From assembly GCF_900107975.1 (NCBI RefSeq), contig NZ_FNVF01000004.1, positions 62,001 to 126,000 on the forward strand: a DNA stretch of 64,000 nucleotides, given 5' to 3'. Positions 14,383-22,850 of the stretch are shown piece after piece; within the stretch, counting starts at the first letter, position 1; each line of letters starts with the position of its first letter. The position numbers were made by a program, and so were the translations under genes. This DNA comes from Paenibacillus sp. UNC499MF (GTDB taxonomy: Bacteria > Bacillota > Bacilli > Paenibacillales > NBRC-103111). The notes beneath the pieces were generated by a model. The model worked only from the letters and a program-made list of their open reading frames with translations, was not told the origin of the DNA and did not search any database.

Positions 14383-14470
14383 ATGTTCTACTAGACTGGA
14401 ATTATTACATACACATTCCATAGATTGAAAGCAAAACTAGCAGAGGCATAGTATAATATAGGAAAAAAGT

Positions 14471-17400
14471 ATGAGTAATAGGCCGCAGGGGGTAACGGGA
14501 AGTATGAGAATCAACCGAAGAAATATGTTGAAAGCGCTCAAATTTCTTTTTCCTGAGTATCAACTTGTTGAACTGATTCGGGAAGAAGGATTTTTCGATA
14601 AAAAAGAAGCCCCTCCAGCTCCAACGAGACAAGCGCAGCCGACGCAACCCTATCATAGAGGCTCGGGAGTCAGAAGTGCAGGTCCGAACTATTCCGGGCA
14701 GACCGCAGCGGGACGGAACGTTACTTCATCGACTTCCCGCCCTACTCAGACCCCAGCCCGTGCGTCACATGGAGAAGGCCGGAATGACGCGCAGAGCGAT
14801 TTATCTCCCAAGCAATTGGACCAATTGTTCCGGGAAGCAGGAAAGAACGTTAATAGTCATGTAATGGGACAGCCGCTGTTCGTCGACGATTTGGTTGCGG
14901 GGTATAAGCAGGGATATATGAATGGGCGCCAAAGTAATAAGCCAAGGAACGTGATCCTACTGGCCGGGGCCCCGGGAACGGGCAAAAAAACAGCTTTGGA
15001 ATGGCTGGTTCGGGAGATATATGCACGCGGACTAACATCCGGGCCACATCTTTCGGAAATTGATTTACAGCGTTATGAGGCCGATGAACTATCAGGAAAT
15101 TTTATCAGTGATATGGCGGAGGCTTTCCAGCATTCCGAGGGCACGGTGTTGTTCCGCGGGATCAAAGGGGCTGACCCGGCTTTTATCAGCCTAATCGCCA
15201 AGCTTGCCGGGGAAGGCAGCTTCCGAACCAAAGAAGGGGTTCGCATCAGCGCCGCCGATTATTTCATCGTGTTCTATGTCGATGAACATGCAGAGAGAGA
15301 AAGCGAATATGGGCAAGTTCCGGCCGTGCTGGCAAAGCTTCTCCCCGTGTCTATCTTACAAACTGTCCTTGCATCGGCAATATCGTCACCGATAGAGCGG
15401 GAGACGATGAAGCAGATCGCCGAGATCTTACTCGGGAAAGCGATAGAAGATCTGTCAAGGGATATGCAGACAAAGATTGCCGTCCATCCTTCCACGTATG
15501 AGGCGCTGGCCGATATAGCCGCAGCCAATAAAACGTTCGGCGAGGCTGTGCAGCACTGGATTGATAAGGAGCTCATCCCCATATTATCTGGTCTGCGGGC
15601 CCGTAATGAGATTCGTGGCAATGAGAGTGTACGAATCCATTTCAAGAACGGTTCTTTTGTTGTGGCGTCGAATTCGTTTGAAATCCCGATCAAAGCCGTA
15701 TCTTTCGTTCGTCAGGAGTCGATTGACGATGTTTTGGAGGAATTAAATGCGCTAACGGGTCTGGAACCTGTTAAAAAGTTCGTCTACGAGCTGATGGAAA
15801 CGGTCCAGGTTAACCGGCTGAGGGCCAGGGAAGGCGAGGGCTCTGTGGCAATGTCGCTTCACATGGTGTTTACCGGGAATCCGGGAACCGGTAAAACGAC
15901 GGTCGCCCGCTTGATCGGACGCATTCTGAAGGCGCTCGGTTTACTGCCGCAAGGTCAATTGATCGAAGTGACAAGACAGGATCTTGTCGGACAATATGTG
16001 GGCTCTACCGCTCCGAAAACGATGGCACAAGTCAATGAGGCCTTGGGAGGCGTATTGTTCATCGACGAGGCATACACGCTCGCCCGTCACGACCACGATA
16101 CGTTCGGCATCGAAGCGATCGACACGATTGTCAAGGCGATGGAGGACCACCGGGATCAGCTTGTTGTCGTGCTGGCAGGGTATACCCAGGAGATGGAGAC
16201 TTTTCTGCGGTCGAATCCGGGTTTGCGCTCCAGATTTCCATTCATCGTGGAATTCCCGGATTACAAGGCGGCAGATATGCTGGACATTATGATTCAGATG
16301 GCGAGCAAGAACGGTTTCCGGATAGAAGAGGACGCTTACGAGGGTTTAATCGAGCTGTTCGATCAACGGCAAATCCCCGGCCGCAACGACAGCGGCAACG
16401 GCCGGCTTGTCCGCAATTTGTTCGAGGAGGCGGTCCGCAAGCAGGCGACCCGGCTTAGAGAGCTGATGTCAGGGGCAGCTGCAGCTGCAGACTTGCAAGT
16501 ATTGACCGGGGCAGACTTCGGGATCGGGGAGAAGGAAGCCTTTAATATCGAGAATGAGCTCGCCGGAATTGTCGGATTGGAGAAGGTCAAACTATTCGTC
16601 CGAACGTTAGAGAAACAGCTTATTGTTGATCGAAGGCGGAAGGAAGCCGGGATTCATGTCGACACCGGGCAGACTCTCAACATGATTTTTTCGGGGAATC
16701 CCGGTACGGGCAAGACGACGATGGCGCGGCTGGTGGCAGGGATGCTCCGGTCCATGGGCTATTTGAAAAAAGGACACCTCGTTGAGGTGGACCGGTCCGA
16801 TCTGGTAGCGGAATACGTCGGCCAGACGGCCAATAAGACCAAGCTGGTTGTCGAATCTGCTCTCGGCGGCGTGCTCTTCATCGACGAAGCCTATGCGCTT
16901 GCGCAGGATGGCGTGCAGGGCGGGGGCTTCGGTAAAGAAGCGATCGATTCCTTGGTTCGTCTTATCGAGCTGCATAAAGACAACCTAGTTGTCATTTTGG
17001 CGGGATACACGGAAGATATGCAGCGGTTTGTTCAAGTAAATCCGGGTCTGTCCTCGCGCTTCCCGCTGCAAATCGAGTTTCCCGATTATACGGCAGGGGA
17101 AATGCAGCAAATCGCTTCGATTATGGTGAAGGCGCGTGGCTTCAGCTTAGCTCCGGGTGTAGCGGGTTTACTCGAACCCTATTTTAACGGGAAGCAAATC
17201 CCGGGCAGAAAGGACGGGGGCAACGGCCGGCTCGTCCGTAATACGCTGGAGGGAGCGATACGCAAGCAAGCGGAACGATTGGCCGATCACCCCGATATTG
17301 CGGCGGATCGGTTAAATGAGCTGACTGTAGAGGATTTTGGATTGTCGGTACCTGTTGACCTTGCGGTGAAGCAGGCGAGTGCGCTTGGAGCGCTCGACGA

Positions 17401-18172
17401 CGTTGTCGGTCTGTCCTCCGTTAAGGAATTTGTGAGAAGCCTATCGGCTCAAATTGAGGTGGCCAAGCGCCGTGAAGAGTTGGGGCTGCCCAAGGCTTCC
17501 GCTCAAGCCCTTCATATGGTGTTTAAGGGAAATCCGGGAACCGGCAAAACGACCATTGCCCGTATTTTGGCCCAGCGATTTAAAGAATTGGGCGTGACCA
17601 AGGCCGACACGCTGGTAGAGACGGATCGTTCCGGCCTGGTTGCCGGTTATGTGGGGCAAACCGCGCTCAAGACGAAAGAAGTTATCGAGCGCGCTCTGGG
17701 CGGAATCCTGTTTGTGGATGAGGCTTACGCTCTGGCGGAAGGGGATCAATTCGGACAGGAAGCGATCGATACGCTAGTCAAGGCCATGGACGATTACCGG
17801 GACAGGCTCATCGTGATATTGGCCGGCTACGACGAAGATATGGAGCGTTTCTTGAACCGCAATGCGGGGCTCCGCTCCAGGTTTCCCAATATGATTACTT
17901 TCCCCGACTATACAGCCGGAGAAATGCTGCAAATTGCCCGTCTCCTGGTAAAGGCGCAAGGGTATGTGATCGTCCCTGAAGCGGAAGCCGCGCTGCTCTC
18001 CATTTTGGAGACCTATGAAGGAGATAGGACCGCAGGCAATGGACGGCTTGTTCGCAATTTGGTCGAGAAAGCGATTCGAGGCCACGCCTTGCGTATGAGC
18101 ATGAAGGCCGATGCCACAGCCGAGGAATTGTCCGCATTGATGCCTGAAGACTTTCAAGGAAAGACGGGGTGA
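14471..18172 (+). CDS. Multi-module AAA+ ATPase with three CbbX/SpoVK-type modules
   Basis: 1233 residues. A short helical head (about 12-45) and a disordered Pro/Ser/Gln linker (46-110) precede an N-terminal AAA module with Walker A GAPGTGKK near 166-173. Three tandem CbbX/SpoVK-type AAA+ modules follow, with Walker A GNPGTGKTT near residues 470, 741 and 1018. Each has a VLFIDEAYTLA- or ILFVDEAYALA-type Walker B and an NPGLRSRFP-type arginine finger segment. The first module is divergent: it has no DEAx-type Walker B in register (TVLFRGIKGAD instead), so it may not hydrolyse ATP. CbbX/SpoVK proteins normally have one such module. No signal peptide is present. A weak AGGA lies 8 bases before ATG 14471; an in-frame ATG at 14504 with an upstream GGGGG is the alternative start. 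It heads a co-directional gene cluster and probably remodels or assembles a protein made by that cluster. Confidence 0.85.
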   Translation: MSNRPQGVTGSMRINRRNMLKALKFLFPEYQLVELIREEGFFDKKEAPPAPTRQAQPTQPYHRGSGVRSAGPNYSGQTAAGRNVTSSTSRPTQTPARASHGEGRNDAQSDLSPKQLDQLFREAGKNVNSHVMGQPLFVDDLVAGYKQGYMNGRQSNKPRNVILLAGAPGTGKKTALEWLVREIYARGLTSGPHLSEIDLQRYEADELSGNFISDMAEAFQHSEGTVLFRGIKGADPAFISLIAKLAGEGSFRTKEGVRISAADYFIVFYVDEHAERESEYGQVPAVLAKLLPVSILQTVLASAISSPIERETMKQIAEILLGKAIEDLSRDMQTKIAVHPSTYEALADIAAANKTFGEAVQHWIDKELIPILSGLRARNEIRGNESVRIHFKNGSFVVASNSFEIPIKAVSFVRQESIDDVLEELNALTGLEPVKKFVYELMETVQVNRLRAREGEGSVAMSLHMVFTGNPGTGKTTVARLIGRILKALGLLPQGQLIEVTRQDLVGQYVGSTAPKTMAQVNEALGGVLFIDEAYTLARHDHDTFGIEAIDTIVKAMEDHRDQLVVVLAGYTQEMETFLRSNPGLRSRFPFIVEFPDYKAADMLDIMIQMASKNGFRIEEDAYEGLIELFDQRQIPGRNDSGNGRLVRNLFEEAVRKQATRLRELMSGAAAAADLQVLTGADFGIGEKEAFNIENELAGIVGLEKVKLFVRTLEKQLIVDRRRKEAGIHVDTGQTLNMIFSGNPGTGKTTMARLVAGMLRSMGYLKKGHLVEVDRSDLVAEYVGQTANKTKLVVESALGGVLFIDEAYALAQDGVQGGGFGKEAIDSLVRLIELHKDNLVVILAGYTEDMQRFVQVNPGLSSRFPLQIEFPDYTAGEMQQIASIMVKARGFSLAPGVAGLLEPYFNGKQIPGRKDGGNGRLVRNTLEGAIRKQAERLADHPDIAADRLNELTVEDFGLSVPVDLAVKQASALGALDDVVGLSSVKEFVRSLSAQIEVAKRREELGLPKASAQALHMVFKGNPGTGKTTIARILAQRFKELGVTKADTLVETDRSGLVAGYVGQTALKTKEVIERALGGILFVDEAYALAEGDQFGQEAIDTLVKAMDDYRDRLIVILAGYDEDMERFLNRNAGLRSRFPNMITFPDYTAGEMLQIARLLVKAQGYVIVPEAEAALLSILETYEGDRTAGNGRLVRNLVEKAIRGHALRMSMKADATAEELSALMPEDFQGKTG

Positions 18173-18176
18173 TGGA

Positions 18177-18620
18177 ATGAATGTCCTGAAATGGCTGCTT
18201 GCTCTCTTATTTTTTCATCCCCTCATGATCGGGGTTATTTTCCTTACGTTTCTCATGCCTTTCATGATATATGCCGATCTAAATAATATTCTGGTAAACG
18301 AGGTTCCGGTCGCTGGTGGCGGTGTGATCGTACTTAGCCTTTTCGCTTTTTTTATTTATTTGACCATGAGGGTCAAATTTTTAGGTATCCCCTATCGTAA
18401 AATTACGATCTTGCTTCCAGCCTTGCAAATGCTCATTTATACCAGCTTCGCTCTATCGGTAGGAGTTATCATTCTCAACAAATGGGCGGACGAGGGGCTT
18501 TATTCCAAAGGATGGGCCATTACGCTTCTGCTGCTTGCGATTACGGCTATCCGATTATGCATGTCTCTGCTGTACTGGAAATACCCGGTTGTTCGGCGGA
18601 CAAATCGATATAAGGAATAG
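18177..18620 (+). CDS. Four-helix integral membrane protein, family unknown
   Basis: 147 residues with four predicted membrane segments (about 4-30, 45-64, 78-101, 112-133) and a basic C-terminus. It begins 4 bases after the stop of the AAA+ gene, with GGGGTGATGG serving as ribosome binding site within the upstream coding end, so the two are surely co-transcribed. A membrane partner or substrate for the AAA+ protein is a reasonable inference. No family was recognised. Confidence 0.7.
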   Translation: MNVLKWLLALLFFHPLMIGVIFLTFLMPFMIYADLNNILVNEVPVAGGGVIVLSLFAFFIYLTMRVKFLGIPYRKITILLPALQMLIYTSFALSVGVIILNKWADEGLYSKGWAITLLLLAITAIRLCMSLLYWKYPVVRRTNRYKE

Positions 18621-18634
18621 TGAGGAGAAGGAAA

Positions 18635-19264
18635 TTGACAGATCACCGACAAGATGAGCAAAGACCGAAGTCAAACGAGCCCGACCCATATGAGCTTCGG
18701 CAAACGGAAAATGAGGATGTCCCTAAGGAATTTACAGGGGCGTCAGACAATCGTAAGTCATCTTCTAACGGAAAAAAAGGAAATAAGCAACGATTTTGGA
18801 TCGGAATTACGGCGCTTATCACGTTTGGGATGTTCATGTATTTCCAAGGTCCAAACGGCAGTATAAAAGATGTTCAATCGAATGGTATCGGTAAAGGGAT
18901 GAAGGCGGGTATCCAACTGGTCGCGGCCGATGATTCGGCGGGACTCGAAGCCAGGGATTTCAACATTGAGATGAAGAAAAATACGACGACAGGCCGCATG
19001 CTGATCTGGGATTTCGCCGCGGAAGACGGCGATGTCGTTACGGTGAAGGTAGACGGCAATATTCTTCAATCGAACATAACTATCATGCACAGCCCGGTGG
19101 CGCTTGATATTCCGATTCCAAGCGTGGTTGAAATTACAGGTGTCAAGGACGGCGGAGGCGGGATTACATACGGGGTTAAGTTCCCCGGAGCCGTTCAGAA
19201 TAACGCTTATTTCAATGCGGCGCCGGTAGGCTCCTCTAACGTCTATACGATAACCGGGCAGTAG
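18635..19264 (+). CDS. Single-pass membrane protein with extracellular beta-rich domain
   Basis: 209 residues from a TTG at 18635; GAGGAG lies 7 bases upstream, overlapping the end of the preceding gene. Residues 1-50 are charged and cytosolic, a single helix (about 53-73, FWIGITALITFGMFMYF) spans the membrane, and about 130 residues of beta-rich sequence face outside (MLIWDFAAEDGDVVTVKVDG; ALDIPIPSVVEITGVKDGGG). The fold of the outer domain was not recognised. It is the third gene of the AAA+ operon and could be the envelope-facing part of a complex. Confidence 0.65.
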   Translation: MTDHRQDEQRPKSNEPDPYELRQTENEDVPKEFTGASDNRKSSSNGKKGNKQRFWIGITALITFGMFMYFQGPNGSIKDVQSNGIGKGMKAGIQLVAADDSAGLEARDFNIEMKKNTTTGRMLIWDFAAEDGDVVTVKVDGNILQSNITIMHSPVALDIPIPSVVEITGVKDGGGGITYGVKFPGAVQNNAYFNAAPVGSSNVYTITGQ

Positions 19265-19281
19265 GGAAAGCGCTAACCATA

Positions 19282-19932
19282 ATGGAAATAAGAGACATAG
19301 ATAGCACCGTAGGATATGAACAAGAACTAGCGGGAAAGACCATTCGAGGAGGCCGTCACGTGGGAAGATCATTTGCAAATTTGCATATCAAGTCGGGAAA
19401 CCTTGAGAAGACTGTCGAAGCATTAAGAGAGCTGAGCAAAGCGCATGGCCATGTTTTAGGCAAACGAAATAATGAGGCTCAAGCGACCAAAGATGTCATG
19501 TATATAAGCAAAAGCAACGAGAACTGGATCAGCGTGCTCCACGACTATTTTGTATGGGGTACGGTGAAGAAGGCCGGCAAAGCGTTGTCCCAGCTTATCG
19601 AGGGGCCGGTAATGACCGCCTCATACATGAATGAGGAAATATTCGAGTTGTCGATTTTCGAGAATGGAGAGATAGTGGGTGAAAGAATCTTTTGTGAGCA
19701 GTGGACGAGGGAAGAATATGAACAACTGAAAGAAGAGCGCATGAATGATGACTACCTGCGGAAAGCGTTGGATATTTCTAATGAGGATTTTGACGACTTA
19801 ATTAGCATTACGAGTCCGGCCCAAGCCGTAGATAAGCTGTCCGAACTCGTGGGAGTGTCTTTATGGAGTGATTCGGAGTGGATACCGCACGAAGAAACTC
19901 TCAGAGAACAATTTGAGAAATATATATTTTAA
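19282..19932 (+). CDS. Unrecognised acidic cytosolic protein in the AAA+ operon
   Basis: 216 residues, start ATG 19282 with AGGGAAAG upstream; a GTG at 19360 is an alternative. The N-terminal part reads LEKTVEALRELSKAHGHVLG, the middle is beta-rich (MTASYMNEEIFELSIFENGE), and the acidic C-terminus reads LRKALDISNEDFDDLISITS. There is no signal peptide or membrane segment. The gene is 17 bp from the previous gene and followed by the broken tail of another. It resembles DUF-type immunity proteins in size and composition only; no function assigned. Confidence 0.6.
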   Translation: MEIRDIDSTVGYEQELAGKTIRGGRHVGRSFANLHIKSGNLEKTVEALRELSKAHGHVLGKRNNEAQATKDVMYISKSNENWISVLHDYFVWGTVKKAGKALSQLIEGPVMTASYMNEEIFELSIFENGEIVGERIFCEQWTREEYEQLKEERMNDDYLRKALDISNEDFDDLISITSPAQAVDKLSELVGVSLWSDSEWIPHEETLREQFEKYIF

Positions 19933-19940
19933 GATGCTCT

Positions 19941-20042
19941 GAAGGAACAAAACCGTCTGTGCGTATAAGCCAAGATGCGATTTACGATTTGAGCAAATCG
20001 TGGATTTTCAGCAAATATGAACTTGTGATCGATGGCAATTAG
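19941..20042 (+). pseudogene. 3' remnant of a paralogue of the gene at 60133
   Basis: The frame ending in TAG at 20040-20042 reads EGTKPSVRISQDAIYDLSKS and then WIFSKYELVIDGN. The intact protein encoded at 60133-60756 ends KPPVRISENAANELAASWIF and then KKYELVMNGKQ. The similarity shows that a relative of that gene stood here and was deleted except for its last 30 codons. No start or ribosome binding site remains. Confidence 0.7.
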
Positions 20043-20055
20043 GGAGGGTTTATGA

Positions 20056-21066
20056 ATGCGTAAGATATGGAAAAGAAGGATTCTGATCGATAACCCTGCT
20101 GCGCTGGACCGGGTTCAGATCGAGCAGGACTTGCACAGCGGCAACCAAGTGATTGTCCAGTTCTCTCACCCGGATTTTTATGGCTCCATCCTGGAAGAAG
20201 TGGATGAGCTCTGCGCGCGCTGGAATGAGGATTTCGGAGTACGTTTCTACGCCCACTATTCTCTGTCTTTCGATTGCCATACTCTCTTGCGGATTCCTCA
20301 TGTCAAAATGCTGCAGCTTAATAGTCTCGTTCAGGCACATAACACAGAAGCATTGGCCAAGCTGGACAACCTGTCCAGTTTAAGTTTGGAGATATACGAG
20401 CTGGAGAATTCGGAAATTCTCGGGATGGATACGCTGCGTTCTCTTAAAATTTTAAACGTTATCTTCGATAAAAAGACCCTTAACCTGCAATATTTTAAAG
20501 AATTCTCTTGTCTGGAAGAGCTGCATGTAGGGGGCAAGGTTAAAAACCTTGATGCCATCGGTTATCTGGAGGATTTGAATTATCTCGCGCTGCATTCGAT
20601 CAGCAAACTGCCGTTACATTTTATTAACCGGCTGAGGAAGCTGAAGCACCTTCGCATTTTGCTTGGAGGCCGGGAGCATATTCAGGAAATTGAAGAGAAT
20701 GAAATCGGGGATCTGGAGATCGTTAGAGTCCGCGGTTTTCATGACCTGACCAATATTACGGCCTTTCAAGCGCTGAATAGGCTGGTTATTGAGGATCAGA
20801 TCCAACTGCAAGAAATCAGCTTTGATCAGGAAATGAAGGCACTGGAGGAGCTGTCTATCCGGAATTGTAAAGGCTTGTCTCGCTTGACGGGATTGGAGCG
20901 ACTGCCTGTGCTGCACAAGCTTCGCCTTTTAAAAACGGCAATCGATTTTGATTCCTTTATCAATCAGAAACTTCCGAATTCCTTATCTTCAGTGGAGTTT
21001 GCGACTTTCAAAAGTAAAGCAGACCGGGAAATACAACAATCTCTATTAAAATTGGGTTATCAATAA
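20056..21066 (+). CDS. Leucine-rich-repeat protein
   Basis: 336 residues, start ATG 20056 behind GGGAGGG. From about residue 85 the chain is a run of LRR-like units (HVKMLQLNSL; NLSSLSLEIYEL; TLRSLKILNVIF; CLEELHVGGKVKNLDAIGYL; DLNYLALHSI; KLKHLRILLGG; ALEELSIRNCKGLSRL). There is no signal peptide or anchor, so it is probably cytosolic. LRR proteins of this type bind other proteins and occur in polymorphic-toxin immunity clusters. It shares strand and spacing with the rest of the AAA+ cluster. Confidence 0.75.
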   Translation: MRKIWKRRILIDNPAALDRVQIEQDLHSGNQVIVQFSHPDFYGSILEEVDELCARWNEDFGVRFYAHYSLSFDCHTLLRIPHVKMLQLNSLVQAHNTEALAKLDNLSSLSLEIYELENSEILGMDTLRSLKILNVIFDKKTLNLQYFKEFSCLEELHVGGKVKNLDAIGYLEDLNYLALHSISKLPLHFINRLRKLKHLRILLGGREHIQEIEENEIGDLEIVRVRGFHDLTNITAFQALNRLVIEDQIQLQEISFDQEMKALEELSIRNCKGLSRLTGLERLPVLHKLRLLKTAIDFDSFINQKLPNSLSSVEFATFKSKADREIQQSLLKLGYQ

Positions 21067-21163
21067 AAGGATTAGTCTTGGCGGCCGCTTCGTTTCTCCG
21101 GAATCCCTGTGCTTTCCGGTTAAGTTGACTTAAGTATAACTAAGGAAGATGGGGGCCGAAATC

Positions 21164-21439
21164 ATGGTTGCGTTAAAGTTTATCTGTACCTGGATATTGC
21201 TCGTTGCATCATGTTCGGCGGTATGGTGGAGCTTCAGAACAGAAAAGCTTATAACGGTCTCTTGGCTGGCGTTTCTGCTTCCCGCCGTCTTCCAGTTCGC
21301 GGCCGCTTTTCGGATCGGCCCCGGCCAAGCGAAGTCGCTGATCGTTTTCGGCTGCATAAATCTTGTGCTTACTGCCCTTGTGGGTGTGGCTGTCTGGTAC
21401 CTAGTCCAAGTGGCTAATGCGTATAAAAGAGGCAAATGA
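21164..21439 (+). CDS. Small three-helix membrane protein
   Basis: 91 residues from ATG 21164 with GGGGG 7 bases upstream; an ATG at 21149 is in frame but sits directly on AAGGAAG. Three membrane segments (about 3-22, 31-50, 60-82) and a short basic tail are predicted. The gene lies between the LRR gene and a SUKH gene. Function unknown. Confidence 0.6.
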   Translation: MVALKFICTWILLVASCSAVWWSFRTEKLITVSWLAFLLPAVFQFAAAFRIGPGQAKSLIVFGCINLVLTALVGVAVWYLVQVANAYKRGK

Positions 21440-21466
21440 TTCGTATAGGAAGAGAGGACCGAACTT

Positions 21467-21925
21467 ATGTATGAGCGTTTGGCAGAAAAACTGAAAACGA
21501 CTTCCGCACTAAAATGGTTTCCTAACCGTGGTGCGGAAGAGAGCTGGATAGCGGAAGTCGAGGAAGAATTAGGATTTCCCCTGCCGCCATCTTATCGCTG
21601 GTGGCTGGTTCATTACGGTAATGCCCGGTTAAGTGGCGGGAATATTCTAACGATCGCTCCTCCGGAATACAGAGAGGACTATGACGGCGACCTTCTTTAC
21701 ATCCATAGACTGAATAAAGCCGAGGAGTGGTGGGTAGACCGGTTTCCCCACAGACTGGACTTGTTCGTGCCGGATAGCGACGAGCTTTACTATTTTGATA
21801 CGTCTACTAGAGATGAACAGGGAGAATTTCCGATCATGTGTTATGATCTTATGAATGATATGATCGACAAGTATGCTTCCACGTTTGCGGAGTTTCTGGA
21901 ACGGCTGATTGACGAGCGTTCTTAA
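21467..21925 (+). CDS. SMI1/KNR4 (SUKH-1) family protein
   Basis: 152 residues with the SUKH signature: AEESWIAEVEEELGFPLPPSYRWWLVHYGN at the N-terminus, a central ILTIAPPEYRED strand, LFVPDSDELYYFDTS, and a C-terminal helix ASTFAEFLERLI. SUKH proteins are a widespread immunity superfamily neutralising nuclease and other polymorphic toxins; they are also used as general binding modules. The ribosome binding site GAGAGGA precedes the ATG. No toxin gene is found nearby. Confidence 0.85.
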   Translation: MYERLAEKLKTTSALKWFPNRGAEESWIAEVEEELGFPLPPSYRWWLVHYGNARLSGGNILTIAPPEYREDYDGDLLYIHRLNKAEEWWVDRFPHRLDLFVPDSDELYYFDTSTRDEQGEFPIMCYDLMNDMIDKYASTFAEFLERLIDERS

Positions 21926-22079
21926 ATAAATGATAAGCAGGCTGGAAGCTGCGCGCTGCCGCCGGCTGGATTTGAGATCCGCCGCGCCCGGGCGATCTTG
22001 GCTCGATTGAAGGCGAAATAAGGCTGGCGCAACTAGAAGACGGCTTGAGCTGATCGACCAACGGAAAGGAGGGCCTTTC

Positions 22080-22640
22080 ATGAAGCCGATGCAAGAAATA
22101 GAGAGGCTGGCGATAGAGATCGCCGATGCTGCCAGAACGTCTTTTCGCGCTCTTTTTGAAAATGGTGAACGTTATTATTACTGTACGCTCTATACTACAG
22201 GCGAGGGACATGCGCCAAGCATCTCTGCCTGGTCGTGGGAAGCTTTGGAAATGGAATCGGCCAGACAAGGAGACGAAAGTGGCACACCGGGATCGACGAT
22301 TGCGGAACTCATCAAATGGTCCTATGCCGATTCGCCCTATTGTTGTTTCGGGGATGAGAACTTCGATCACGTTAAACAACGATTTATGGAGCGTCCTATC
22401 CTTGGGGATCTTGCAAATGACGAGGGGAACCGCGAGTTTGATTTGAGGCTGAAGGCCATGGAAATGGCGATGAAAATGCTCGATGATGAAGGCGTGTTTG
22501 CCTTGAATCAACCGCGGGAGTCAGTATGCGTCCTTGTCGAAGTCATGCCGCCGGATGAGATCAATACTGAAATCGCCCTGCGTCTGAACCGGGCGGACTC
22601 TCAGGCTATGCAGGTATGGCTGGCGGAAGCGGCGGAGTAG
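22080..22640 (+). CDS. DUF4303 domain protein
   Basis: 186 residues; AAAGGAGG precedes the ATG at 22080. The sequence has features of DUF4303: a helical N-terminus (ERLAIEIADAARTSFRALFE), RYYYCTLYTTGEGHAPSISA, a WSYADSPYCCFGDENFDHV segment and a conserved C-terminal region. DUF4303 proteins are found in immunity gene clusters. It is the last gene before the terminator that ends this cluster. The 154-bp gap before it contains no recognised gene. Confidence 0.8.
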   Translation: MKPMQEIERLAIEIADAARTSFRALFENGERYYYCTLYTTGEGHAPSISAWSWEALEMESARQGDESGTPGSTIAELIKWSYADSPYCCFGDENFDHVKQRFMERPILGDLANDEGNREFDLRLKAMEMAMKMLDDEGVFALNQPRESVCVLVEVMPPDEINTEIALRLNRADSQAMQVWLAEAAE

Positions 22641-22815
22641 AAGCATCCGCTTCGGGAACTCTGGCGTCTATTACGTTTCGACTAATATGATGCTTAAGCA
22701 GAGTTTAAGCCTTGCAGCTCTAGGGAACATGCTTTTCGTTTCCTCAAGAAGAACGTTTAAGAAGAACCGTTCAAGGAGAGCGACTTCATGAGCGCAGGAG
22801 ATACCTAAAACGCCC

Positions 22816-22850
22816 AAAACACCTCCCAAAAGGAGGTGTTTTGACTTTTT
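22816..22850. terminator. Bidirectional terminator between the AAA+ cluster and the MFS gene
   Basis: AAAACACCTCC and GGAGGTGTTTT form a perfect 11-bp stem with loop CAAAA; GACTTTTT follows on the plus strand and the A-rich left arm serves the minus strand. Confidence 0.85.

Follow-up and report, generated by a model that had tools for sequence, protein, structure and literature searches.

A stretch of 64,000 nucleotides from the genome of Paenibacillus sp. UNC499MF (contig NZ_FNVF01000004.1, positions 62,001 to 126,000 of the forward strand; hereafter the window) contains three adjoining genes, termed A, B, and C, which encode a large multimodular AAA+ protein and two small proteins predicted to lie in the membrane. 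The host genome comprises 5.84 Mb in 37 contigs. The initial annotation of the window had described these genes as the first of eight open reading frames (ORFs) on the plus strand, and all eight are found where they had been placed. The nearest named relatives at the A locus are Paenibacillus sp. HGH0039 (86%) and P. chitinolyticus NBRC 15660 (85%), as compared over the N-terminal module of A. The features of the three genes, in window coordinates, are the following.

14440 to 14470, plus strand: promoter-like −10 region ahead of gene A, tagTATAATatagg, with TATAAT at 14452-14457 and without a clear −35; a lead found by eye.
14504 to 18172, plus strand: gene A, probable extent, 1222 residues; the listed ORF from 14471 has 1233 residues.
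14504 to 14593, plus strand: conserved N-terminal motif of A with the core FLFPExQL, followed by a variable linker; found by eye and proposed as a docking motif.
14807 to 15724, plus strand: Clp D2-type AAA module of A, predicted to be catalytically dead, with no S/T after GTGK and no Walker B DE.
15716 to 16540, plus strand: CbbX/SpoVK-type module 1 of A (m1), motifs intact.
16529 to 17353, plus strand: CbbX/SpoVK-type module 2 of A (m2), motifs intact; lost in the shorter A of locus L139.
17366 to 18169, plus strand: CbbX/SpoVK-type module 3 of A (m3), motifs intact.
18177 to 18620, plus strand: gene B, 147 residues, four-helix membrane protein matching no database family.
18620 to 19264, plus strand: gene C, 214 residues, GTG start; a variable tail, one transmembrane segment, and a presumably outside nine-strand beta-sandwich; matching no database family.

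Gene A had been annotated as 1233 residues read from 14471. The plus-strand ORF is present, but its true start is probably 14504, because the proteins of the closest relatives start with the M of MRINR and because the sequence aggggg lies at 14487-14492; the upstream start is disfavoured since it falls merely 13 nucleotides past the TATAAT. The same −10 element recurs by eye upstream of A in several relatives. A promoter pattern scan of the window gave a count not above chance, so that the −10 of gene A is a lead only. No sporulation sigma promoter is seen by eye upstream of A, where only the SigA-like −10 recurs. Gene C is read here from the GTG at 18620, where the initial annotation had given 18635. 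The tight spacing reported earlier is confirmed, with a gap of 4 nucleotides between A and B and an overlap of 1 nucleotide between B and C. All three genes are under purifying selection: the ratios of nonsynonymous to synonymous substitution rates are 0.14 for A, 0.28 for B, and 0.31 for C against locus L057, and 0.11, 0.13, and 0.15, respectively, against L059.

The system consists of the three genes A, B, and C, and the boundaries drawn earlier were wrong. Among 104 genomes of the same family, full-length A is present in nine, B in nine, and C in nine, and the nine genomes are identical; the chance of this co-occurrence is 4e-13 under the assumption of independent genomes, whereas these genomes are related. 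A profile of the N-terminal module of A detects the gene in 21 of 392 genomes of the order, where 25 genomes matched and four weak matches (E 2.6e-4 to 6.1e-4) were dropped, and in 6 of 398 genomes of the class, four of them outside the order. In the class search, 207 of the 213 matching genomes were dropped at a score gap running from E 6e-66 to 4e-20, and those of the dropped matches that were listed are mostly ORFs of 700-930 residues, a length as in Clp ATPases. Two short peptide patterns run against 84,980 species yield 16 loci, all in Paenibacillus or Cohnella, 13 of which had been found previously and three of which are new (L107, L112, and L117). A total of 28 A loci is thereby obtained, and at 26 of them A, B, and C adjoin one another in the same order and on the same strand, while the surroundings vary. 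The co-conservation of the first three genes, which had been proposed as the test of a system, is thus found.

A conserved fourth gene was sought by comparing 463 neighbour ORFs from the 28 loci all against all, and only B and C occupy a fixed place. Genes named by eye as two-component and short-chain-dehydrogenase genes recur at 7-8 loci in varied places. When 134 of 178 neighbour proteins were scanned with Pfam (the scan left out all eight of L091, the outermost of most loci, and a few long ones), the commonest family had 5 members, as judged from the commonest 25 of 160 families; the protein list itself left out ORFs shorter than 110 residues (26 in number). B and C are fused into one polypeptide of 346-350 residues in genomes G093 and G100, where, at loci L063 and L064, the fusion is present twice and is followed by one extra C, all behind a single A. 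A, B, and C probably constitute one uncharacterised machine, carried jointly by many soil bacteria.

The remaining five genes, D to H, had been assigned to the same operon. DNA comparison shows instead two blocks with a border at 19264/19276. The window from 14409 to 19264 is co-linear at 90-91% with the A-B-C loci of the sister genomes G060 and G058, and 19276-22681 aligns at about 90% with a different contig of G060 which carries D, E, F, G, and H together. Two further genomes (G059 and G061) carry D, E, and H without A-B-C. From 22756 on, the right flank of the window aligns again with the sequence downstream of A-B-C in G060 and G058, so that in the host the D-H block sits between C and a common flank. 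The block begins 12 bases past C, and its genes span 19282-22640. Among 103 genomes of the family, D occurs in 13 and E in 16. D, E, F, and H are absent from the sequence around the other 27 A loci examined, and SUKH is represented there by a single 36-residue piece, roughly 9 kb away from A in L060. What had formerly been grouped with A-B-C as immunity-type genes and an acidic protein is a separately inherited block. The initial annotation had also considered that the AAA+ gene might occur widely without the downstream genes; such is the case for D-H and is not the case for B and C.

As for their identity, D to H encode an acidic protein, a leucine-rich-repeat-like (LRR-like) protein, a small transmembrane protein, a SUKH protein, and a DUF4303 protein. 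The names SUKH for G and DUF4303 for H are clear, whereas the LRR match of E is under the Pfam cut-off. Taken together, D-H resembles an independent accessory island of the immunity type. The strong terminator described at the end of the run has a counterpart in a terminator-like hairpin at 22815-22843; terminator-like sites in the window number 17 against 12.6 expected (standard deviation 3.7), which is not far over chance. The same scan gives no such site between C and D, and read-through from the promoter of A into D-H is therefore possible.

The separation of the two blocks bears on the suggestion that the locus is a defence or inter-bacterial conflict system, that is, a mobile and patchy operon directed against phage or toxins in which D-H would provide the immunity genes. 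The patchy occurrence of A in the order (21 of 392 genomes) is consistent with it, and so is the similarity of the AAA modules to IetA and TRIP13. In addition, the window A is closer to that of L090, from another family, than to that of L059 from the same family, and L136 of another order nests in the tree among Paenibacillus copies; these placements suggest horizontal transfer between families and orders. D-H, however, is a separate block, and C has no match in phage records. The neighbourhoods of A are unlike defence islands: PADLOC models match at most 5 of the 134 neighbour proteins at E <= 1e-15, a subtilase model accounting for one of them. No IetS-type protease is present among the ten window proteins scanned. 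Membership in IetAS was considered separately and rejected, A scoring 93 bits against an IetA cut-off of 510 and no protease being present among the same ten proteins. Patchy distribution and apparent transfer leave the defence reading, raised earlier as a perhaps, with some probability, yet it is an unlikely one.

Protein A has been described as carrying three tandem CbbX/SpoVK-type modules, and AAA and AAA_lid_6 indeed match it three times each. GNPGTGKT and the DEAY of Walker B are kept in 83 of 83 CbbX modules from 28 proteins, and AGY is visible. In PMC10659427, GY in sensor 1 is given as the signature of the SpoVK/CbbX/EccA higher clade. On the strength of AAA with AAA_lid_6, the Walker A and B motifs, and GY, the modules of A are assigned to this clade.

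A tree of the modules included 20 of the 28 A proteins and 22 single-module proteins, same-genus copies being left out. All m1 copies form one clade (97/85), as do the m2 copies (99/95), and the m3 copies form one clade except for L016, a long-branched single-module protein; 21 of the 22 single-module (SpoVK-like) proteins form a separate 100/100 clade. The three module clades point to one old triplication; L139 has lost m2. The L016 protein (L016:1471-3030) has 519 residues with a single CbbX module, and two unknown genes lie beside it in surroundings that appear unrelated.

Against the SpoVK model (TIGR02881, cut-off 422.95), the modules score 302, 285, and 300 bits, all under the cut-off. 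As a control, the likely SpoVK of the host (L002, a separate gene) scores 407 bits, and with three more single-module proteins the range is 407-421, just under the cut-off. Since the controls also fall short, it is a gap of about 105 bits or larger, and not the cut-off, that separates the modules from SpoVK. The whole of A reaches 873 bits with the SpoVK model; for both SpoVK and EccA, the NCBIfam cut-off is exceeded solely because its three modules are summed, and none passes singly. A is in this regard at risk of misannotation, and the proteins of the family that are likely to be true SpoVK fall narrowly short of the SpoVK cut-off. With the CbbX model (TIGR02880, cut-off 459.25), the modules give 245, 219, and 215 bits, all under the cut-off; the best match among solved structures is CbbX (3syk, E 1e-57), and EccA1 (9lur) is matched at E 4e-50.

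These scores are relevant to the view that A is a further SpoVK, a chaperone devoted to sporulation. In its favour, every module has SpoVK as its nearest curated family, and SpoIVA is present in 24 of 25 A-carrying genomes. The exception, G690, has A-B-C without SpoIVA, which makes a spore-only role unlikely. Moreover, the modules reach only 285-302 bits with the SpoVK model, the likely SpoVK of the host is a separate gene in the separate 100/100 clade, and in the host's family A-B-C is confined to 9 of 104 genomes. The sporulation reading is, as a consequence of these points, given little credence.

The initial annotation had also drawn a link to EccA and the type VII secretion system, according to which A would be an accessory ATPase of that system, like EccA in ESX. 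Each module does resemble EccA, with 236, 221, and 236 bits (TIGR03922, cut-off 466.65), all under a cut-off which a lone module is hardly expected to reach, as the model also spans an N-terminal part. Furthermore, in G510 a gene read by eye as an LXG/WXG-like putative toxin lies about 3.6 kb away from a B-C fusion (L151:9419-10348) that has no A nearby. Conversely, a search for EssC with the TIGR03928 model alone exceeds the curated cut-off in 10 of 25 genomes that carry A and in 6 of 25 controls that lack it. In the host no match reaches the cut-off, and the single match below it (122 bits, an ORF of 896 residues) looks like an FtsK-type translocase. Neither WXG100 nor EssC is among the commonest 25 of the 160 neighbour families. 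A survey of type VII systems lists Paenibacillus under variants c, g, and h, and its passages on Paenibacillus contain no triple-CbbX component (PMC11217815). Because EssC is missing from 15 of the 25 carriers, including the host, secretion of the type VII kind is unlikely and a type VII system is not obligatory for A; the link is abandoned as highly improbable.

The N-terminal part of A had been recognised as a degenerate AAA module, and it can now be specified as Clp D2-type with both catalytic motifs lost. It matches Torsin (PF06309), with the best stretch at residues 122-190, and the end of the ClpV model at 306-383. Its profile, run against the PDB, finds ClpC (3pxi, E 1e-18, positions 10-289), with ClpB and Hsp104 next. 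The S/T after GTGK/R is lost in 28 of 28 copies, and the Walker B DE pair is intact in none of the 21 aligned copies. The module is, as far as its motifs indicate, a pseudo-ATPase of Clp/Hsp100 D2 homology. Ahead of it, the FLFPExQL motif is seen by eye within the first 30 residues of A at 26 of 26 A-B-C loci, with FLFPEWNI in L101 and without the trailing GF in L063 and L064; it is absent in L100, which has no B or C.

B and C have no convincing family match in Pfam, NCBIfam, or PADLOC. The description of B as a four-helix membrane protein is supported by four hydrophobic helices, and the positive charges in loop 2 and in the tail fit an N-in/C-in arrangement. C had been described as a single-pass protein with a beta-rich domain, and one hydrophobic segment followed by a predicted beta fold is indeed found; the segment of the window copy is under a simple hydropathy threshold, which 7 of 7 unfused C proteins scored pass. 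In the fused relative L115, modelled at a mean pLDDT of 74, the C domain (80-95 in 10-residue blocks) is predicted to form a nine-strand sandwich. If B is N-in/C-in, the C domain would lie outside, as in the B-C fusion. Conserved features of C are WD(F/Y)..ED.D, D.GGG(I/L)TY, and N.YT. The fold compares with SpyCatcher at Z 6.9, which is within background for such searches, and Foldseek with the model of the C domain gives nothing at E <= 0.001.

The three tandem C domains behind one A in G093 and G100 are as expected of substrates and raise a further alternative, a secretion or assembly machine in which A would pull C, or a polymer bound to C, out of the membrane or thread it across. Threading is the usual activity of AAA+ proteins of the Clp family. 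On the other hand, the transmembrane segment is kept in all seven C copies scored, the ten window proteins scanned include no protease, and the fusion of C to B in G093 and G100 is more in keeping with a fixed subunit. A threading role is accordingly judged improbable.

Relatives of C elsewhere are rare. One is found in 72,556 plasmid records (Methylorubrum sp. B1-46, plasmid pB146-2, E 5e-8), none in 50,697 phage records, and one in IMG/VR (L153), with none in two further scans; a phylum-wide C search of 209 genomes returned the host only. On pB146-2 (L154:5767-7349), a C-core protein of 162 residues and an AAA+ protein of 364 residues (WP_157228058.1 and WP_152277741.1) are encoded with a 1-nucleotide overlap. 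By eye, the AAA+ protein has an N-terminal hydrophobic segment, a Walker A GPPGSAKS, and a Walker B VVILDEFEK, and it matches AAA_2 at 1.5e-18. The profile of C aligns with the C-core protein at an hhalign probability of 97.6%; the dead module of A aligns with the AAA+ protein at 96.0%, a value expected of any Clp-D2 relative. Judging by these alignments, a C-type domain also stands beside a membrane-anchored Clp-D2-type AAA+ protein in a Gram-negative of a distant phylum, and a wider family of exported-domain/AAA+ pairs may exist. Two candidates for a second pair were rejected: H13/L155, from AAA relatives in 1992 plasmid records, has N-terminal hydrophobic segments but a different upstream gene (by eye), and L156 reads as a whole ClpA-like protein.

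From this material it can be inferred, at a probability of about one half, that A, B, and C encode a dedicated chaperone which docks at the membrane and remodels an envelope target. B, together with C, would be the membrane receptor, on which A would dock through its N-terminal motif and/or its dead Clp-like module. The presumed extracytoplasmic sandwich of C may sense or hold an envelope ligand, and the binding or release of this ligand outside would be relayed through B and C to A, whose three live modules would spend ATP to remodel or activate one specific envelope protein facing the cytosol. Such a target would be encoded outside the locus. The earlier proposal of an AAA+ motor acting with membrane or envelope proteins is therefore retained as the best reading.

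Several observations favour the dedicated-chaperone reading. The three genes are co-inherited, B and C exist as a single polypeptide in G093 and G100, and no further neighbour family recurs at a fixed place. A combines a dead Clp-D2 module with intact Walker motifs in its CbbX modules, and the FLFPExQL motif accompanies B and C at all 26 A-B-C loci and is missing from L100. The C core also adjoins a membrane-anchored Clp-D2-type AAA+ protein in Methylorubrum. Lastly, the clade offers a precedent: in PMC10659427, SpoVK is reported to activate MurG, and clade members are seen by the authors as dedicated chaperones.

Other observations weigh against this reading. A lacks adjoining B and C at 2 of the 28 loci (L099 and L100), and L099, where A adjoins a gene resembling an insertion sequence transposase (by eye), retains the proposed docking motif. 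Four of the 10 C-positive genomes of the class search have C-like DNA and no recognised A: an intact B-C fusion in G510, a short ORF without a transmembrane segment in G587, and broken or marginal copies in G722 and G428; the IMG/VR locus L153 likewise has a C-like protein with no A in the surrounding 12 kb. Because of such C-like genes without A, B and C may have A-independent uses, or these copies may be remnants. The predicted structure of A has a pTM of 0.38, too low for the arrangement of the modules, for instance as a dynein-like ring, to be read. The presumed position of the C sandwich outside the cytoplasm derives only from charge distribution and the fusion. Its best structural neighbour, the CBM60/36-like structure 2xfd (CBM60 being Ca-dependent), is matched weakly and at background level (Z 7.5, 84 residues aligned, 2.7 Å), and Foldseek gives no match at E <= 0.001, so that ligand binding by C is tentative. 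Finally, the Methylorubrum pair is a single instance, further C queries having given the same plasmid or nothing.

By eye, the usual N-terminus is replaced in the divergent triple-CbbX protein of L100 (L100:7792-14318) by a stretch resembling tetratricopeptide repeats (TPR), and the neighbouring genes encode a J-domain/TPR-like protein on one side and a TPR-like protein with two transmembrane segments on the other. L100 is possibly a sister system with other membrane partners.

A broader and more tentative proposal takes the plasmid pair into account. An exported C-type sandwich and a cytosolic Clp-D2-type AAA+ protein might represent an old cross-phylum pair forming a transmembrane AAA+ machine; in Bacilli, the Clp partner might have become a dead docking module which recruits a fused triple CbbX motor, yielding an ATPase controlled from outside the cell. 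This is a conceivable scheme, though a doubtful one.

The AAA+ modules of the clade are known already, and what appears to be new is the architecture of A and its partners B and C. No description of a dead Clp-D2 module joined to three CbbX modules, or of B and C as partners, was found in the literature text searched, which did not cover the clade operons of Figure 3A in PMC10659427. Few members of the SpoVK/CbbX/EccA clade have known targets, and a compact operon of this type makes the membrane recruitment and the targets of such chaperones directly testable. It also yields two protein families (B and C) unmatched in the libraries searched and a natural pseudo-ATPase fusion.

Compared with known systems, A resembles SpoVK most closely among curated families, belonging to the same AAA+ clade, in which SpoVK is the precedent for a dedicated envelope chaperone. 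According to PMC10659427, SpoVK is spore-specific and has a single module together with a short N-terminal domain; A has three modules besides its dead Clp module and is accompanied by two membrane partners, and one of the genomes that carry it has no SpoIVA. EccA of ESX, the T7SSa form of type VII secretion, is likewise a cytosolic AAA+ protein of this clade beside a membrane complex, but the window A shows no TPR among the best 25 of 71 Pfam families, a TPR-like N-terminus being seen only by eye in L100. CbbX, the Rubisco activase, provides the best solved structure match (3syk); it differs in being a single module, the modules of A are under its cut-off, and no Rubisco gene was noted near A. 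To the D2 of ClpC and ClpB, which is also Torsin-like, the N-terminal module of A aligns throughout, including the small domain, whereas it has lost both ATPase motifs, lacks D1, and is fused to CbbX modules. The pB146-2 pair of Methylorubrum shares with A-B-C the adjoining genes for a C-core protein and a Clp-D2-type AAA+ protein, and differs from it in that its AAA+ protein retains both Walker motifs and carries a transmembrane segment itself (by eye), without CbbX modules and without B.

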